NCBI RefSeq assembly: GCF_000517625.1 | Contig: NZ_CP007055.1 | Span: 2,046,001-2,110,000 of the forward strand | Source: Halostagnicola larsenii XH-48 | GTDB taxonomy: Archaea > Halobacteriota > Halobacteria > Halobacteriales > Natrialbaceae | Direction: 5' to 3' | DNA length: 64,000 nt | Shown here: positions 5,103 to 61,527 of the stretch, in pieces | How positions within the stretch are numbered: position 1 is the first letter of the stretch | How the letters are laid out: each line of letters starts with the position of its first letter | Position numbers and translations under genes: made by a program | The notes under the pieces: generated by a model | What the model was told of the DNA's origin: nothing | What the model saw: only the letters and a program-made list of their open reading frames with translations | Databases searched by the model: none

Positions 5103-5756
5103 TTACTTCCATAGTTCGCCTCCCGAAAATAGTCGAGGGAGCGCCTCGAGCGTCTCACCCGCGGATTCGCCGTCCTCGAGAAGGATCGCGGTGCCGCCGA
5201 CGCCCTCGACGCCGCCGTCAGTCGCCGGATCGTCGCCGACGTGGACGAGTTCGGACGGCGCGACGCCGAGTCGATCCGCTGCCACCTCGAACATCTCCGG
5301 GGCGGGTTTGCGCCAGCCGCAGCCGACGCTGGTCACGACGGCGTCGAAATCGTCCCGGCGCAGGTCGGCCCGGACCAGCGTTCGGCCGACGAGTTCGGGC
5401 ACGCTGCAGTTCGAGCAGAGCCCGACCGGTCCCGGTCCGTGTTCTCGAGCGGCCTCGATCACCGCTCGAGCGCCGTCTCTGGTCTCGACCTCGGGATCGA
5501 ACGCGGCGACGACGGCCCGCCGGGCGGCGTTTGCCGGACAGTCTACCCCGCGGCTGGCGAGGGCTCGAGCGACGTGGGCCGGGAGCGGGACCTCCGCGCC
5601 CTCGGGCGCATCGATGTGCATCTCGGTGTACGCGTCGGCCCAGTCGGGCGGCACGTCGACGCCTCGCTCCTCGAGTTCCGCCGCGACAGCAGCGGCCGGA
5701 TCATCGGGTCTGGTCGCGGTTACGAGCGTCCCGAACAGATCGAACGTTACTCCCAC
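5103..5756 (-). CDS. HAD-superfamily hydrolase heading the cobamide operon
   Basis: A 217-aa haloacid dehalogenase-superfamily protein. Motif I is FDLFGTLV at the N-terminus with the nucleophile Asp, motif II is around GLCSNCSVPE, motif III is the Lys in GWRKPAPEMFE, and motif IV is VHVGDDPATDGG. Motif I is DxF rather than DxD, so the usual second Asp acid/base is absent; some HAD phosphatases and the dehalogenases share this. I chose GTG at 5756, directly before motif I. It is the first gene of the cobamide operon, 34 nt before cbiB, which suggests a role as a phosphatase acting on a pathway phosphate ester. That role is inference; a general housekeeping phosphatase is equally possible. Confidence 0.75.
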   Translation of the reverse strand: MGVTFDLFGTLVTATRPDDPAAAVAAELEERGVDVPPDWADAYTEMHIDAPEGAEVPLPAHVARALASRGVDCPANAARRAVVAAFDPEVETRDGARAVIEAAREHGPGPVGLCSNCSVPELVGRTLVRADLRRDDFDAVVTSVGCGWRKPAPEMFEVAADRLGVAPSELVHVGDDPATDGGVEGVGGTAILLEDGESAGETLEALPRLFSGGELWK

Positions 5757-54224: not shown

Positions 54225-54827
54225 TTATTCCGCGTACACGCAGGCCTCAAGATACGACTCGATTTCCTCGCGAACGTCGCCGACCCACTCGTCGTCCTCG
54301 CTCGTCGAGCGGCGCATGATCGTGCCGTTGATCATCGTGATCAACGTCGCCGCCACCCCCTCGGGATTACAGGGCTGGAAGACGCCCCGGTCGATCCCCG
54401 CCTCGACGATGTCGACGATCAGATCCTCGAACACGTCGTCGCTCCGGTTGAAGTGCGATCGGTACGCCTCGTCGTGGGTCGCCTGCGCCCGGAGTTCGAA
54501 CAGCGCGGCCATCGACTGGCGCTCGTCGTCGTCGATGCTGCGCTCGAAGAGTTGGTCGACAACCTCCTCGAGGGCGTCCCGGGGCTCCTCGACCGGTCCC
54601 TCGATCGACTTCGTGCGAAACGCCTCGAGCATGAACTCGAGCGTCTCGAGGACCAGATCGTCCTTCCCGTCGTAGTGGTGGTAGATCAGCGACTGGCTCT
54701 TCGCGAACTCGTCGCCGATCTTGTCAATCGTCAGGTCCGCGTACCCGTGCTCGAGCAGCGTGGCGAGCGTCGCGCCCATGATCTCCTCGCGCGTGTTCGA
54801 CGGGTTCTCGAGGATTTCAGGAGCCAT
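54225..54827 (-). CDS. TetR/AcrR-family regulator
   Basis: A 200-aa TetR regulator. The HTH is NTREEIMGATLATLLEHGYA followed by LTIDKIGDEFAKSQSLIYHH and YHHYDGKDDLVLETLEFML. The C-terminal ligand-binding domain is helical and acidic. ATG at 54827 is preferred because it starts just before the HTH; a GTG at 54938 would add 37 unconserved residues. It is divergent from an operon for a secreted protein and an RND/MMPL exporter, with a perfect 18-bp palindrome between them, so it very likely represses that operon and itself. The ligand is unknown. Confidence 0.85.
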   Translation of the reverse strand: MAPEILENPSNTREEIMGATLATLLEHGYADLTIDKIGDEFAKSQSLIYHHYDGKDDLVLETLEFMLEAFRTKSIEGPVEEPRDALEEVVDQLFERSIDDDERQSMAALFELRAQATHDEAYRSHFNRSDDVFEDLIVDIVEAGIDRGVFQPCNPEGVAATLITMINGTIMRRSTSEDDEWVGDVREEIESYLEACVYAE

Positions 54828-54969
54828 CGAGGCGCCCCCGTCGGCTCGCCGATCGATCGCCGACTCGTCTTGCCGTCCGCTGGCGACTGCGACCGCCTCG
54901 AGCGGCGGCCGGTGACCGGTCCCTGTCGTGCATACCACCGTGGACGAGATGGGGGACCAAAAAAGGAGT

Positions 54970-54987
54970 TGATTGAACGTTCAATCA
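54970..54987. promoter_or_regulatory. TetR-type operator, 18-bp perfect palindrome
   Basis: TGATTGAACGTTCAATCA is a perfect palindrome, the strongest in the window. It is 6 nt before CCTATAAC (54993-55000), the likely TATA box of the exporter operon, and next to the T-run that may serve the tetR promoter. Such sites are typical for TetR autorepressors. Confidence 0.7.
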
Positions 54988-55022
54988 CAAAACCTATAAC
55001 CGCGCTGTTGTGATATCGTGTA

Positions 55023-55121
55023 ATGACAGATATTCATCGAAGGGAAACAGTGTGCTCGACTGAGCATACCCGGAGTAGAACGGTCAGAAACGGAGACCGG
55101 GGGCGTGTTACTGAACAATGA
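55023..55121 (+). CDS. Possible 32-aa leader ORF coupled to the secreted-protein gene
   Basis: The ATG at 55023 is about 26 nt after the TATA box CCTATAAC (54993-55000), the position expected of a leaderless start. The frame runs 32 codons and its TGA overlaps the next ATG in ATGA. The product would be basic (MTDIHRRETVCSTEHTRSRT and on), unlike haloarchaeal protein, and GC3 is low. It may be a translated leader that couples ribosomes to the next gene rather than a functional protein. Confidence 0.35.
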   Translation: MTDIHRRETVCSTEHTRSRTVRNGDRGRVTEQ

Positions 55122-56746
55122 GGGTAACACGCCAATCGGTCGTCGCGATTGTATTCGTACTGCTGGTCGGAGCGAGTCTGAGTGTGTCACCGATCGGCGC
55201 GCTCGCCCAGGACAGCGCCTCGACGGGTGGAAGTAGCGGCTACGTGCCGCCGGATAGAGGACACCCGGATCTATCGGCGAACCTTCCGGACAACGAAGTT
55301 GGAACGGGAACGACCGAAGAGCTTCAGTTCGAAATCACGAACGACGGGGAAATCACGTCCGGCTCGGGTCAGGGCGTCACCGACGCCCAGAGCGTCACCG
55401 TCGAGATGGACGACGACGGGCCGTTCGAATCGCAGGTGGACGAACGCTCCATCGGAGCCGTCCAGGACGGCGGCGTTGCCGAAGCGGTGTTCCCGGTGGC
55501 CGTTCCCGACGATCTCGAGGCCGGCGAGTACGAAGTGACCCTCGAGATCAGCTACACCTACGCCGAGACGATCGGAACGGACGGGAGCGTCGACCGCGAG
55601 CGAGACTCCGAAACCGTCGACGTCACCGTCGAGGTCCCGGAAGAACCCCGATTCGAAGTCGCAGACGTCAACACCGACGTCGAACCCGGTGCCAGCGGCG
55701 ATGCGATCCTCGAGGTCGAGAACACGGGAACGGTGGCCGCGAACGAGACGCGAGCGACCATCACCGGCGGTGGCGGCGTCGTCGTCGACGGCGAGGCCGC
55801 GCGGGAGGTCCTCGGCGATATCGAACCCGGCGAGACGGCCACTGCGGTCGTCAACGTGCAGGTCAACGAGGCGACCAGCGGCGGCGCGAAGCCGCTCGAC
55901 CTCGAGTTTACCTACCGGGACGAAAACGGCGTCCAGCAGGAGGCCGAACCCGAAACCGCGAGTCTCGCGCCCGCCGACGAACAGGAGTTCTCCATTCAGA
56001 ACCTAGAGAGCGACCTCTCGGTCGGCTACGAGGGCGACGTGAGCGGGCAGGTCCGCAACGACGGGCCCCGAACCATCGACGACGCCGTGTTGGTCGTCGA
56101 ACCGATGAGCGAAACGGTGTTCATCGAGGACACCCGCTACGCCCTCCCCGAGATCGAACCCGGCGAGACCGCCGACTTCACCTATCCGACCGACGTCAGC
56201 GGCCAGGCCGACGCCGGCGACCGCCAGCTCCGGTTCACCGTCGAGTACACCGGCGGCGACGACTCGCCGCTCCAGGACGGCCCACACTCCGAGCGCGTAA
56301 GCGTCGAGGACCGTCAGGACGAGTTCTCGATCAGCGGCGACAACGTCTCCGTCGAGCAGGGCGGGAGCAACGAGTTCGCCCTCGAGATCACCAACGAACG
56401 TTCACAGACGCTCTCGAACATCAACGCGATGTTGTACACCAGCGGCGAACTCGATACCGACGACGACGAGGCCTTCGTCGACGAACTCGCGCCGGGCGAG
56501 TCCGCCGAGATCACCTTCGACATCTCGGCCACGAGCGCCGCGTCCGCGAAGACCCACCCCGTCGAACTGGATTTCCAGTACGACACCGAAAGCGGTGAGA
56601 CCATCGTATCCGACACCTACCAGCATCCGGTCGACGTCCGACAGAGCGAAGACGACGGTGGCGGGATCACGGGAACGCTCGTCGGCGTCCTGGGCGCGCT
56701 CGCCGTCGCCGGCGTCGGAATCACGCTCTGGTGGCGACGAGGGTAA
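55118..56746 (+). CDS. Secreted membrane-anchored COG1361-type protein
   Basis: A 542-aa protein. A signal peptide (VAIVFVLLVGASLSVSPIGA) precedes about four beta-sandwich repeats of the CARDB/NEW3 type, seen as recurring segments such as VDVTVEVPEEPRFEVADVNT and LEVENTGTVAANETRATITG, with DIEPGETATAVVNVQV. A C-terminal helix (GTLVGVLGALAVAGVGITLW) and WWRRG anchor it to the membrane. It is acidic and mostly outside the cell. It is followed 4 nt later by an RND/MMPL exporter, suggesting it is an exporter accessory on the cell surface. ATG at 55118 is preceded in frame by a stop, so this start is certain. Confidence 0.85.
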   Translation: MRVTRQSVVAIVFVLLVGASLSVSPIGALAQDSASTGGSSGYVPPDRGHPDLSANLPDNEVGTGTTEELQFEITNDGEITSGSGQGVTDAQSVTVEMDDDGPFESQVDERSIGAVQDGGVAEAVFPVAVPDDLEAGEYEVTLEISYTYAETIGTDGSVDRERDSETVDVTVEVPEEPRFEVADVNTDVEPGASGDAILEVENTGTVAANETRATITGGGGVVVDGEAAREVLGDIEPGETATAVVNVQVNEATSGGAKPLDLEFTYRDENGVQQEAEPETASLAPADEQEFSIQNLESDLSVGYEGDVSGQVRNDGPRTIDDAVLVVEPMSETVFIEDTRYALPEIEPGETADFTYPTDVSGQADAGDRQLRFTVEYTGGDDSPLQDGPHSERVSVEDRQDEFSISGDNVSVEQGGSNEFALEITNERSQTLSNINAMLYTSGELDTDDDEAFVDELAPGESAEITFDISATSAASAKTHPVELDFQYDTESGETIVSDTYQHPVDVRQSEDDGGGITGTLVGVLGALAVAGVGITLWWRRG

Positions 56747-56750
56747 CTGA

Positions 56751-59420
56751 ATGACAGAGTCCGATCGCCCCGACGACCGAACCAGCGACGACCTCGCCGA
56801 CCGTGAGGCCGACCTCGTCACCGATGGCGGGGGTGCCCGCGACGAGTCGAGCGCTGGCAGCCGAGTGAGCGGCCTGTTCGGCTCCCTGGCTGAGCGACTC
56901 GGCTCGCTTCGGGGCTCGAGCGGCGGCTCGGGCGACGACGAGGACGACCCGTTCACCAGACGGATCAATCCGCTCATCTCGAAGCGTCCGTGGACGGTCG
57001 TCATCGTCTTTCTCCTGCTGACGGGCGTGTTTATGGCCGGAGCGGGCATGGGCGGCGGCGAGCAGGAAGCCGGTGCCGACCAGTTCGCAGACGACACCGA
57101 GGAGTCACAAGCCTACGAGGACATTCAAGACGAGTTCCGCGAATCGGGTCACGAGGAGGGCGGAACCACCGCCCAGTTGTTCATCGAAGACGATCGGAAC
57201 GTCCTCTCGCAGCCGAACCTCCTGCGGATGCTCGAGTTTCAGGATCGGATCGAAACGCAGGACGACCTCCGCGTGGAATCGTCGACCAGTCCCGCGTCAC
57301 TGATCGCCCAACAGCTCGATCCCGAGGCGGAAACCGCCGAGGAACAGTACCGAGCGGTCGACAGGGCATCGAGCGGACAGCTCGAGAGAGCGATCGCCGA
57401 CGCGGACGAGGCGGCCGGGCTCCCGGTGAGTACGGACTTTACGCCGGAATCGGCGGAGGCTGACGTCGCCCAGGTTGCGATCACCTACGACACCGCGCCG
57501 ATGGCCGATACGGACAACTACGCGGATCTGCAGTACGAAACCGAGGCCATCGCCAACGAGATCGACGGCTTCGAAAGCGGCGAGAACATCGTCGTCTTCG
57601 GCGACGCGATCATCGAAGAGGAGACCACCCAACTGTTGACCGATACCTCGATCGTCGTCTTCCCGGCGGCGATTATCCTCATCCTCTTTTTCCTGCTGGT
57701 GGCCTACCGGGACCCGATCGACCTCGGGCTCGGTCTCGTCTCGCTCCTGATGGCGATGATCTGGACGTTCGGATTCATGGGATTCGCGGGAATTGCATTC
57801 TCCCAGTCGCTGATCGTCGTCTTCCCCTTGCTGTTAGCGGTCGGGATCGACTTCGGGATACACATAATCAATCGCTATCGCGAGGAACGGGCCAAGGGTG
57901 TACCGATCGGAGAGGCGATGACGCTGACGACGAGCCAGCTAACGGCGGCGTTTCTCATCGTGACGCTGACGACCGTCTTCGGCTTCGCGTCGAACCTGGT
58001 CAGTTCGATGAGCGGGATGCAAGACTTCGCCATCGTCGCCGCCATCGGGATGCTCTTTACGTTCCTGATCTTCGGCGTCTTCCTCCCCGCCGGCAAGGTC
58101 GGATTCGATCGGCTCCGAGAAGGGACGCGCTTCCCGCAGTTTGGAACCACGCCGATGGGCAGCGAAGGATCCGTTCTGGGCAAGATACTCCCTGTCGGCG
58201 TCCGGGTCGCTCGAGTCGCGCCCGTGGTCTTTCTCATCGCCATGCTCGTCGTCGGCGGCGGCGCGGCGGCCTACGGGGCGGGGGTCGACACCGAGTTCGA
58301 CCAGGAGGCGTTCTTCCCCGAGGAGGAGCGTCTCGACCAGTACGAACAGCTACCCGGCCCGCTCGCACCCGGCGACTACACCTTCATGACGGTCCTCGAT
58401 TACATGGAAGAGGACTTCGACCGGGGGATGCAGAGCTCGGTGACGATCTACGTCGAGGACGGGGATTTACGCTCCGATACCGCACTCAGAGATATCGATC
58501 GCGCGCTCGAGAACCCGCCCAGCGAGTTCCAGCGGGATGGGAGGGAGGCCAACGCAGACAGCATCGTCTCGGTCGTCGAGACCCGGGCCGCGGAGGATCC
58601 CGAATTCGACGCGGTCGTCACCCGGTACGATTCGAACGGCGACGGAATACCCGACCGGAACGTCGACGTCGTCTACGACGAACTGTTCGCGTCCGACGCC
58701 AGTTCCGAGGCGAGCCAGTATCTCACGACCGACCGCGGCGCGGCTCAGATCAACATCATGATCGACGTCGACGCCGATCAAGCCGAGGCCGTCGACGCCG
58801 CCCAGCAGACCGCAGACGACATGGAGATGGACGCGACGGCAACCGGCCAACTGGTCATCTTCGAGTCCGTCATCGAGGAGACGACCGAGTCGTCGATCAA
58901 CAGCCTCGTGCTCGCGTTCCTCCTGACGACCGTCTTCCTCGTGCTGGCCTACTGGTGGCTCGAGGGGCGGGCGATCTACGGCGTTCTCAACCTCGTTCCG
59001 GTGTTGATCACGGTCGCGCTGCTCGCGGGGTCGATGCGATTGTTCGACATTCCGTTGAGCCCGATCAACGCGCCGATCCTCTCCGTTTCGATCGGACTGG
59101 GCGTTGATTACACGGTGCACTTCATGCACCGGTTCGTCGACGAGTTCGAGGACGGCAACGGCGTACACGAGGCGTTGCTCACCACCGTCCGCGGGACCGG
59201 CGGGGCGCTCACGGGGAGCATGCTCACGACCGTCTGCGGGCTCGGGGTGCTCTATCTCGCCTTGATCCCGCTGATCATGGAGTTCGGCTTGCTCCTCGCG
59301 CTGGGCGTGTTCTACGCCTGCTTCACGTCGATCCTCGTGCTTCCCTCCGTGATCGTCGTCTGGGATCGGTTCGAGAACGGCGCGATCGACCTCCCGTTCC
59401 TCGGAACGAGCCAGCGGTAG
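56751..59420 (+). CDS. RND/MMPL-family exporter
   Basis: An 889-aa exporter with two six-helix halves and two large extracellular loops (about residues 105-290 and 515-705). The family motifs are VGIDFGIHIINRYREERAKG near residue 365 and SIGLGVDYTVHFMHRFVDEF near residue 780. The proton-relay Asp sits in each helix 4. The first ~70 residues are a hydrophilic acidic tail, and the first helix is VVIVFLLLTGVFMAGAGMGG near residue 83. It resembles HAE3/hydrophobe exporters of archaea. The tight spacing to the COG1361 gene indicates one operon, probably released by the TetR protein when its ligand is bound. Substrate unknown. Confidence 0.9.
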   Translation: MTESDRPDDRTSDDLADREADLVTDGGGARDESSAGSRVSGLFGSLAERLGSLRGSSGGSGDDEDDPFTRRINPLISKRPWTVVIVFLLLTGVFMAGAGMGGGEQEAGADQFADDTEESQAYEDIQDEFRESGHEEGGTTAQLFIEDDRNVLSQPNLLRMLEFQDRIETQDDLRVESSTSPASLIAQQLDPEAETAEEQYRAVDRASSGQLERAIADADEAAGLPVSTDFTPESAEADVAQVAITYDTAPMADTDNYADLQYETEAIANEIDGFESGENIVVFGDAIIEEETTQLLTDTSIVVFPAAIILILFFLLVAYRDPIDLGLGLVSLLMAMIWTFGFMGFAGIAFSQSLIVVFPLLLAVGIDFGIHIINRYREERAKGVPIGEAMTLTTSQLTAAFLIVTLTTVFGFASNLVSSMSGMQDFAIVAAIGMLFTFLIFGVFLPAGKVGFDRLREGTRFPQFGTTPMGSEGSVLGKILPVGVRVARVAPVVFLIAMLVVGGGAAAYGAGVDTEFDQEAFFPEEERLDQYEQLPGPLAPGDYTFMTVLDYMEEDFDRGMQSSVTIYVEDGDLRSDTALRDIDRALENPPSEFQRDGREANADSIVSVVETRAAEDPEFDAVVTRYDSNGDGIPDRNVDVVYDELFASDASSEASQYLTTDRGAAQINIMIDVDADQAEAVDAAQQTADDMEMDATATGQLVIFESVIEETTESSINSLVLAFLLTTVFLVLAYWWLEGRAIYGVLNLVPVLITVALLAGSMRLFDIPLSPINAPILSVSIGLGVDYTVHFMHRFVDEFEDGNGVHEALLTTVRGTGGALTGSMLTTVCGLGVLYLALIPLIMEFGLLLALGVFYACFTSILVLPSVIVVWDRFENGAIDLPFLGTSQR

Positions 59421-59529
59421 CGAGTCGCCACCACCCGTTCTGTCGGGCGTAGCAGCCGGCAGAGTGGTCGATGGAAACGCGGCCGAACAGGAAGTGATAT
59501 GCGAGTGCAACGACGAGTTCGGGTATCAC

Positions 59530-60651
59530 ATGTTTGATCGTCGCGACCTGCTGAAAGTCACCGGTGCGACGGCAACAGCGGCGACGGTTGGAGTGGCTGG
59601 CTGTCTCGAGATTCTCGCGTCCCGATCCGAAGCGAAACCGCCCGCCTACAGGGAACACATCGTCACCGACGACGATGGCTGGGTCGGGTTCGGCTACGTC
59701 GACTGGGACGAACTGACGACGATTACCGGAGCCGACAGTGGCGGTACAGGGAGATTCGACTACGAACTCGACGCAGCCGAAGTGATGCACGGCTACCCGC
59801 TCGAGGGGCTCGTCGAACTCGTCGACCGCCTGACGGTCCAACTCGCCGGCTCCGGAATCGGCGGGCTGCTTCGACCGTACCCGGCGCTCGAGGGAATCGA
59901 GGACGAACAGCGTGGCTCGGAGACGGCCGAAACGTTCGAGTCGACCGTCGAGGAGGTGATGACGGTCAACGATGCGCTCGTGCTCCTGGGCTCGATCGAC
60001 GTCGAGGAGATCGTCGCTCACATCACGCAAACGCCGGCAGAAGACACGGTGCGCCGTGAGTACGAACGAGACGGCGAGCAGGGTGAGTACGAACTGTACA
60101 CGCCCGTCGAGGCCGATTCCTCGCTCGGGACGCCGGCGCTCGCGATTGGTTCGGACGCGATTCTCGCCGCGGGGGGCGAAGAGGGGATCGAATCGAACGC
60201 CGCGTCCCTCGAGACGATAACCGAGGACGGCGAGCAGGCGACCGATGCGATCGATGAGTTCGGCTGGTTGATGCAGTACGCTGATGAGGGACAGATCATC
60301 TTCGGCGGCTACGGTGAATCGACGAGCTTTCCGCAGGATCCGAGCGAACACTGGGGGAACACCGATTCGATCGCCCAGTCGTTCACCCAGTTCGTCGACG
60401 CGAAAGGAGCCGTGGGATCGCTTTCCTTCGAGGACGGGGGGACGACGAGTGCGGCGCTGGCGGTCTGGTACGAGTACGATACGGTCGACGATAGCTTCGA
60501 GGCCGCCCTTAGGGGGCGACTCGCCTCAGGCGCGACGGAGCGGTCGGTCAAAGTGAACACCGATCGCCACCGCATTCGAGCGACGGCAACCTGGGGAGAT
60601 GGAAACGAGACCGAAGAGAGCGCCAACGAATCGAGCCAAGAGAGCGACTGA
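59530..60651 (+). CDS. Tat-exported lipoprotein, function unknown
   Basis: A 373-aa protein. The twin-arginine motif is FDRRDLLKVTGATATAATVG and the lipobox is VGVAGCLE, so it should be exported folded and lipid-anchored at Cys 23. The mature part is acidic with recurrent YDYDT-like strands and no named domain. ATG at 59530 sits directly before the signal; the frame upstream to 59464 adds 22 residues without signal character. It follows the exporter by 109 nt on the same strand, so it may be cotranscribed. Whether it helps the exporter is not known. Confidence 0.75.
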   Translation: MFDRRDLLKVTGATATAATVGVAGCLEILASRSEAKPPAYREHIVTDDDGWVGFGYVDWDELTTITGADSGGTGRFDYELDAAEVMHGYPLEGLVELVDRLTVQLAGSGIGGLLRPYPALEGIEDEQRGSETAETFESTVEEVMTVNDALVLLGSIDVEEIVAHITQTPAEDTVRREYERDGEQGEYELYTPVEADSSLGTPALAIGSDAILAAGGEEGIESNAASLETITEDGEQATDAIDEFGWLMQYADEGQIIFGGYGESTSFPQDPSEHWGNTDSIAQSFTQFVDAKGAVGSLSFEDGGTTSAALAVWYEYDTVDDSFEAALRGRLASGATERSVKVNTDRHRIRATATWGDGNETEESANESSQESD

Positions 60652-60715: not shown

Positions 60716-61354
60716 CTACTCTGCCTCTGGCCTCGGTTCTGAGGACTGATATCGTCTAACCCAGAACGCCTGAAGCGGGAGTATCAGGAACGGGACGTAA
60801 AACGCCACCGAGAGATTGACGGCGGCAACGCCGATCGAGAGGAGAAAGACTGCGGGTGGGATGAGCCCGCGAAGCGTGATCAGAGCGCCCGTCCGTTCGT
60901 CGATTGCGTCGATAGTGAACCCGCGTCGATCGGCGTACCACCATAGCGTCGTCAGGACGAGCCCAACGAGGGAAACGTTGAGCGCGTACAGTGTCCAGGT
61001 GAGACGGGTACTGTACACGCCGAGCAGCTCGGTCGGAAACGGCAGAAAGGAGACGGCGAGCAAGAAGACGAGATTCAAATACAGTAACAGCCGATCGTGT
61101 CGATCGATCTGTCGAAACAGGTTGTGGTGGACGATCCAGTAGATGCCGACGACGAAAAACGAGAGCAGGTAGCTGAACAAAAGCGCCAGCTGGTCCGCGA
61201 GGGCGCCCGCTAGCTCGGTCCCAGCGCGATTCGCCGGGACGTCCGGAACGGTGAACTGAAGCACCAACAGCGTGAGAACGATCGCGAACACCCCGTCGGA
61301 AAGCGCCTCGATTCGATCCGTTCGCTCGCCCTTGAGCATAGGGACGCGAACCAT
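60716..61354 (-). CDS. TMEM175-family channel protein (DUF1211)
   Basis: A 212-aa protein with six helices. DRIEALSDGVFAIVLTLLVL near residue 10 is the family's pore-lining helix (FSDGVFAI pattern). The later segments VVGIYWIVHHNLFRQIDRHD and LTTLWWYADRRGF are also typical. Prokaryotic TMEM175 proteins are potassium-selective channels. Starts at 61354 and 61339 are both ATG; I keep 61354. It is divergent from the iron ABC operon over 195 nt that hold both promoters. Confidence 0.85.
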   Translation of the reverse strand: MVRVPMLKGERTDRIEALSDGVFAIVLTLLVLQFTVPDVPANRAGTELAGALADQLALLFSYLLSFFVVGIYWIVHHNLFRQIDRHDRLLLYLNLVFLLAVSFLPFPTELLGVYSTRLTWTLYALNVSLVGLVLTTLWWYADRRGFTIDAIDERTGALITLRGLIPPAVFLLSIGVAAVNLSVAFYVPFLILPLQAFWVRRYQSSEPRPEAE

Positions 61355-61527
61355 GAAAACACCATCCACTCTCGCGAGCAAAACTCGTTGGGGCGGCCGT
61401 CGACCCCGTTGGGTTCGTCCGTCTCGAGGCGTGTGAATCCGTACACTCGCCGGAGGTCGGCAAATACCGCTCGCACCCGGCGCTTTCTGCAGAGTCTCTC
61501 AGCTCGAACCGCAACTATTAAGGACGT

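Follow-up and report, generated by a model that had tools for sequence, protein, structure and literature searches.

The gap between a tetR gene and a divergently oriented exporter operon of Halostagnicola larsenii XH-48 raises the question of how the exporter is switched on, and whether a perfect palindrome within this gap is the site at which the regulator acts. The window, i.e. the whole stretch of 64,000 nucleotides that was analysed, encodes a TetR regulator of 200 aa with TetR_N and BetI-type TetR_C_6 domains on the minus strand (54225–54827), whose nearest named relative, from Halostagnicola sp. A56, is 86 % identical. The interval from its ATG at 54827 to the ATG at 55118 of the first exporter-side gene (54827–55117) is followed on the plus strand by a gene for a cell-surface protein (55118–56746), which we take to be of the CARDB type and which Pfam names NPCBM_assoc/NEW3, and by a gene for an RND exporter of 889 aa that profile matches place among the MMPL/HAE3-like transporters (56751–59420). 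A Tat-signal lipoprotein-like protein encoded 44 nt 3' of the MMPL gene (59464–60651, plus strand) may also belong to the operon; its relatives were found in only three loci, all close to the window's own (L004, L143, L144). The operon is adjoined by a gene for a TMEM175-like membrane protein (60716–61381, minus strand), a relative of which lies near a TetR of the same family in L016.

The palindrome itself, TGATTGAACGTTCAATCA, is located at 54970–54987, and the perfect 18-bp palindrome that the original prediction had described between tetR and the exporter operon is thereby confirmed. With as many as three mismatches allowed, the window yields this one match, compared to 0.01 in shuffles, and in the complete genome the sequence occurs as one exact copy, unique at up to two mismatches, with two further places at three mismatches. 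One perfect 18-bp palindrome in the window has to be seen against 0.42 expected per 64 kb from base composition, and about 27 would be expected in a 4.13-Mb genome of such composition. Such numbers give the palindrome by itself no significance; conservation was therefore used as the test, and it is position and conservation rather than the bare palindrome that appear to make the site significant.

A search of 292 genomes of the class for a degenerate pattern of the site, TGAWTGAACGTTCAWTCA, found it in 61 of them, in a single copy each, while its reversed control matched none of the 292. All 61 places (30 + 30 + the window) were inspected, and every one of them lies at exporter genes: 56 at CARDB and/or MMPL genes, including L120 with an MMPL fragment only and G122 with the pair beyond the far side of tetR, three at MATE genes (G275, G315 and G164) and two at ABC-2/DrrA-like exporter genes (G326 and G175). 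A TetR of the window's TetR family adjoins 57 of these sites. Since the places had been chosen by motif, loci found by TetR protein search alone were also counted. Here, the site is kept at up to two mismatches in 58 of 64 divergent tetR-CARDB loci (L004–L097), the six exceptions being altered sites in L047, L077, L081 and L094 and absent ones in L092 and L096. Conservation of the palindrome near orthologous tetR/MMPL loci, which the original prediction had proposed as a check, is thus found from both directions. The idea of a functionless inverted repeat arisen by chance can draw on the roughly 0.4 perfect palindromes of this length expected per window, but with a site conserved over several families and a control count of zero we regard it as practically negligible.

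A survey starting from the transporter led to the same picture. It comprised 77 MMPL rows at a minimum of 51 % identity, 75 of which were scored, the remaining two being a row from G044 on a truncated contig and the second copy in G079, which lacks CARDB; rows and the table of TetR and operator were tallied by hand. The operator, at up to two mismatches, was found in 60 of 64 MMPL loci with an adjacent TetR as opposed to 4 of 11 without (Fisher p 4e-5, uncorrected for kinship, and as the loci are related, p-values of this kind overstate their independence). The predicted switch of TetR, operator and exporter is hence supported by comparison, both by the 58 protein-found loci that keep the site and by the way in which the operator goes with the TetR.

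It could nevertheless be that another TetR paralogue or a different regulator is the main binder and that the adjacent TetR is incidental, as G000 has seven matches to the window TetR at E ≤1e-10 and as four MMPL-orthologue loci (G010 with a remnant, G043, G081 and G047) retain the site without an intact neighbouring TetR. Against this stand the strong co-occurrence of site and adjacent TetR, the single site in each of the 61 genomes and a paired change of operator and recognition helix in L047, where both half-sites are symmetrically altered from TGA to CGA and the helix is changed too, if in one case only. We consider a different main binder very unlikely, and the palindrome almost certainly is the landing site of the TetR, as far as comparison of sequences can tell. 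At L141, the G010 locus, operator and exporter are retained around position 5242, with tetR apparently reduced to a C-terminal remnant. The reverse situation is met in three loci of one genus (g15: L163, L164 and L165 in G053, G050 and G063), which lack the palindrome and retain tetR and exporter; the recognition helix is kept in the two of these genomes for which it was aligned. All three loci show a conserved non-palindromic stretch at the usual place of the palindrome and retain the short upstream ORF described below. L102 and L103 carry a second operator-like copy about 15 nt beyond the first, at the CARDB start.

The regulator's matches to Pfam TetR_N (1.1e-8) and TetR_C_6 (7.2e-14) both exceed the cut-offs and place it in the TetR family, and its AlphaFold model (pLDDT 90) matches TetR structures, including those of the efflux regulators SmeT, AmvR, EilR and QacR. 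Members of this family bind as a dimer to a palindromic operator near their own gene; here, a conserved palindrome adjoins tetR. Among TetRs having the site, the recognition helix KSxSLxYHHYDGKD is near-invariant. Two more specific identities were rejected: BetI, with 47.6 bits compared to a cut-off of 201.3 and no bet genes among six neighbouring proteins tested, and the Bacillus-type FadR, with 35.6 bits compared to an equivalog cut-off of 200.

For the arrangement of the promoters, 83 loci were aligned after merging those with identical operator context and setting aside five loci without TetR, 34 without CARDB, two co-directional ones and a distant one. Conserved columns were tabulated for the 76 loci with a site at up to two mismatches, a choice that leans towards the motif, with the TATA-like columns lying outside it. 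TTA(T) is conserved 7–10 nt beyond the right edge of the operator (columns +7 to +10), and ATA is conserved 8–10 nt to its left (columns −10 to −8). In the window, the former corresponds to CTATAA at 54994–54999 on the plus strand, in agreement with the TATA box that had been predicted 6 nt from the palindrome, and the latter to a T-rich, TATA-like element at 54959–54964 on the minus strand. These two AT-rich stretches resemble TATA elements, the first of the exporter promoter and the second of the divergent tetR promoter, and the BRE should occupy the 6–7 nt separating operator from TATA (for haloarchaeal BRE and TATA motifs, see the available part of PMC4983044). The locus has one operator, placed between the diverging promoters of regulator and pump, as in a divergent TetR-exporter switch. 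With a TATA-like element at a near-constant distance on either side of the operator, TetR bound there is expected to cover both promoters, and a bound dimer would compete with TFB at each of them.

The same layout could be read the other way round, with TetR bound to the palindrome activating the exporter promoter, or both activating and repressing it, by aiding TFB/TBP from just upstream of the BRE. The operator does lie upstream of the exporter TATA at a fixed distance, and a site upstream of TATA is a usual place for archaeal activators. A precedent is available in Staphylococcus aureus, where the divergent pump gene farE is silent without the TetR regulator FarR according to the accessible sections of PMC10019231. 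The site, however, faces two promoters symmetrically, and Sulfolobus FadR, an archaeal TetR, represses its main gene cluster (PMC6449355, as far as its accessible text goes). The operators of related MATE operons, located between TATA and start codon, suit a repressor as well, so that we rate activation as improbable and repression as the preferred reading.

These MATE operons belong to a wider set of pumps that carry the same operator under TetRs of the same family. Such TetRs are encoded beside MATE pump genes in L014, L015, L017, L018, L019, L021, L022, L025, L028, L098 and L099. The MATE-linked rows have the site at 0–3 mismatches, with 7 of 12 exact for TGANTGAACGTTCANTCA, and in the nine loci examined the operator follows a TATA-like element and precedes the start codon by 0–3 nt, a blocking position of the kind expected for a repressor. 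At the ABC-2/DrrA-like loci tested, the operator, either as such or with an AT-rich centre, was found upstream of the ABC genes at 0–3 mismatches in all eight rows, which represent seven distinct loci (L010, L024, L026, L032, L051, L160 and L162). N-termini reading 'MNVQS' at MATE and ABC genes were considered as a leader peptide and rejected, as they seem to be operator sequence translated ahead of a better start codon. A tree of the TetRs comprised 96 rows; 67 of 68 RND-linked rows fall on one side of a branch with an SH-aLRT of 98 and the MATE- and ABC-linked rows on the opposite side, the tree being the product of a quick search with some long branches and weak inner order, from which motif-picked RND rows had been dropped.

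Beyond the operator, the exporter side of the gap holds a predicted leaderless mini-ORF of 32 codons (55023–55121, plus strand), whose TGA at 55119–55121 overlaps the CARDB ATG at 55118 as ATGA. The comparison of this feature covered 79 loci; L047, L092, L096 and L165 were set aside, as they had no operator within four mismatches to fix the place. The exporter-side ATG mostly lies 34–37 nt beyond the operator. It opens a separate ORF in 76 loci, and in the other three, which do not enter the overlap count, CARDB itself starts at the upstream ATG, here 27–32 nt beyond the operator. An exact NTGA overlap of stop and CARDB start was found in 62 of the 76 loci, compared to a mean of 12.2 and a maximum of 21 in 300 dinucleotide shuffles. 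When loci were clustered at 70 % CARDB identity, 15 of 21 clusters contained at least one exact case, and loci fetched later and previously unused showed the exact overlap in 8 of 13, some of them being close relatives of earlier ones.

The ORFs with exact overlap vary from 22 to 67 codons, their peptides are unlike each other between clusters, and their GC content is nearly equal over codon positions, with no periodicity; translation is therefore deduced from start and stop geometry only. The dissimilar peptides and missing codon-position GC bias also speak against a coding role of the mini-ORF, so that neither a conserved peptide nor attenuation through peptide sensing is likely. In L060, the mini-ORF contains an in-frame repeat SGPSHR and extends over 45 codons compared to 27 in its relatives, with the overlap phase intact. 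From its geometry, the exporter-side mini-ORF seems to be a ribosome-loading ORF that would hand ribosomes over to CARDB. An SD-like motif precedes 55 of 62 coupled CARDB starts, compared to 11 % of windows elsewhere in the ORFs; in the window's own mini-ORF, none was found before the CARDB start.

These SD-like motifs directly before most coupled CARDB starts would equally suit an incidental mini-ORF, with transcription starting elsewhere and CARDB translated from a leadered mRNA by conventional SD-dependent initiation, and the unconserved peptides without codon-position bias would agree with it. Such a reading leaves aside that ATG position and NTGA phase are kept in spite of the widely differing ORF lengths in the majority of clusters, and that in three loci the CARDB ATG itself lies at 27–32 nt from the operator. 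Furthermore, PMC6728339, in its available part, gives 72 % of Haloferax transcripts as leaderless and ascribes to haloarchaeal SD motifs a role chiefly in reinitiation. We therefore regard the incidental reading as rather unlikely and prefer ribosome loading; an upstream ORF with ribosome delivery as its only job has been proposed in general terms (PMC12548453, available passages).

A mini-ORF was also predicted before tetR (54817–54933, minus strand, 38 codons), with its stop 8 nt inside the tetR start. It is weaker than its exporter-side counterpart: in the 79 loci, tetR is in frame at the corresponding ATG in 42, a short ORF ends no more than 10 nt from a potential tetR start in 25, seven are arranged otherwise and five have no ATG, and alternative GTG starts weaken the evidence on this side. 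Neither these leaderless mini-ORFs nor the symmetrical double-promoter layout nor the recurrence of the operator at MATE and ABC-2 pumps had been noticed in the original prediction.

Turning to the exporter, the transporter matches Pfam MMPL with 129.7 bits against a cut-off of 20.5 over two stretches. Its best-scoring NCBIfam model is the HAE3 family TIGR00921, which it covers over nearly its whole length with 228 bits; as this falls below the cut-off of 351.9, we term the transporter HAE3-like only. Among proteins of solved structure, those best matching its sequence are HpnN, MmpL3, NPC1-like and Patched proteins, mostly lipid and sterol carriers. The TetR in turn is similar to regulators with pockets for multiple drugs or cations, such as AmvR (spermidine), SmeT (triclosan), QacR and EilR. 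Taken together, these likenesses make an amphiphile or lipid our best guess for pump substrate or inducer. The CARDB-like protein has a signal-peptide-like N-terminus, an all-beta ectodomain forming a string of beta-sandwiches and a C-terminal hydrophobic helix (model residues 522–539, a stretch of low confidence). Given this helix, the partner is more likely surface-anchored in the membrane than secreted, as had originally been assumed. We suggest that the protein may have an adaptor-like role at the surface; a structure search with its model returned only low-TM matches to strings of beta-sandwiches, without functional meaning.

What is observed is that the operator is conserved, stands at a fixed position between TATA-like elements and goes together with TetR, and that the mini-ORFs keep their geometry. 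From this we infer how the TetR binds and represses, what induces it, where transcription begins and how ribosomes are coupled, as follows. One TetR dimer, or a pair of them, would sit between the divergent core promoters, beside or over the BRE of each, and block the loading of TFB/TBP, thereby repressing both tetR, in an autoregulatory manner, and the CARDB-MMPL operon. An amphiphilic ligand, either the pump substrate or a related compound, would enter the C-terminal pocket of TetR and lift repression. The exporter mRNA would then start at or next to the AUG about 35 nt from the operator, where ribosomes would load in the manner of other leaderless mRNAs of haloarchaea and, having translated a short ORF of indifferent sequence, reinitiate at the overlapping CARDB start. 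That the palindrome serves the adjacent TetR as operator, through which tetR and exporter are repressed, with ligand release and leaderless mini-ORF coupling, appears probable to us. The more far-reaching proposal of a two-layer device, in which operator and TATA set the start, the sequence-free leaderless mini-ORF serves as a compulsory ribosome-loading step and one operator code is common to a TetR clade coupled to RND, MATE and ABC-2 pumps, is put forward tentatively, with slightly less than even confidence.

The predicted regulatory code consists of one 18-bp operator, which as a rule has a single local target in each genome, and of a TetR clade found in many haloarchaeal genera. Inducers of the TetR could be screened with a single reporter, which would open a direct route to the substrates of archaeal MMPL/HAE3-like exporters, and the operator also flags pumps of the MATE and ABC-2 types that are under TetRs of this family. 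The mini-ORF in turn would offer a clear test case for haloarchaeal translation of genes behind a leaderless start.

In open-licence PubMed Central, neither a TetR-MMPL switch of haloarchaea nor the operator of one was found described, and no paper containing TGAATGAMTANTCATTCA, a Bacillus FadR string, was found. For the Bacillus FadR and Bm3R1 operators, this consensus and a core TGAACGTTCA resemble the frame of the window's operator. In the accessible text of PMC11721430 on haloarchaeal MATE pumps, the 'TetR' passages concern tetracycline. The closest solved relative of the window TetR is 3crj from Haloarcula marismortui (E 1e-30, 34 % identity), whose entry title assigns no function and names no operator or target. 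Profile and fold matches connect the regulator to SmeT, TtgR, MtrR and QacR, with which it shares the TetR fold, multidrug-type pockets and local exporter control, AcrR being a further bacterial efflux repressor of the same kind; those regulators, however, act on promoters of bacterial RNA polymerase, whereas the site described here lies between two archaeal TATA/BRE promoters. In FarR-FarE of Staphylococcus aureus, a TetR gene is likewise divergent from the gene for an MMPL-type RND exporter, here of fatty acids, but the system is bacterial and FarR is needed for farE expression, and no mention of a CARDB partner or mini-ORF was found in the accessible sections (PMC10019231). FadR(Sa) of Sulfolobus acidocaldarius is an archaeal TetR and local repressor with a semi-palindromic site, differing in that it controls genes of fatty-acid metabolism instead of an exporter and has four genomic sites with a 16-bp motif (PMC6449355, accessible text). 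Leaderless upstream ORFs and NTGA coupling, as described in the accessible parts of the literature for mycobacteria, E. coli 5'-uAUG and Haloferax gene pairs, share the 5'-terminal AUG, the short ORF and the overlapping stop and start; the mini-ORFs of the type seen in the window differ from them in being positionally conserved, sequence-free and tied to one operator-controlled exporter operon. The proposed switch thus works like known divergent TetR-exporter pairs, and what distinguishes it is the archaeal double-promoter operator together with a predicted coupled leaderless mini-ORF.
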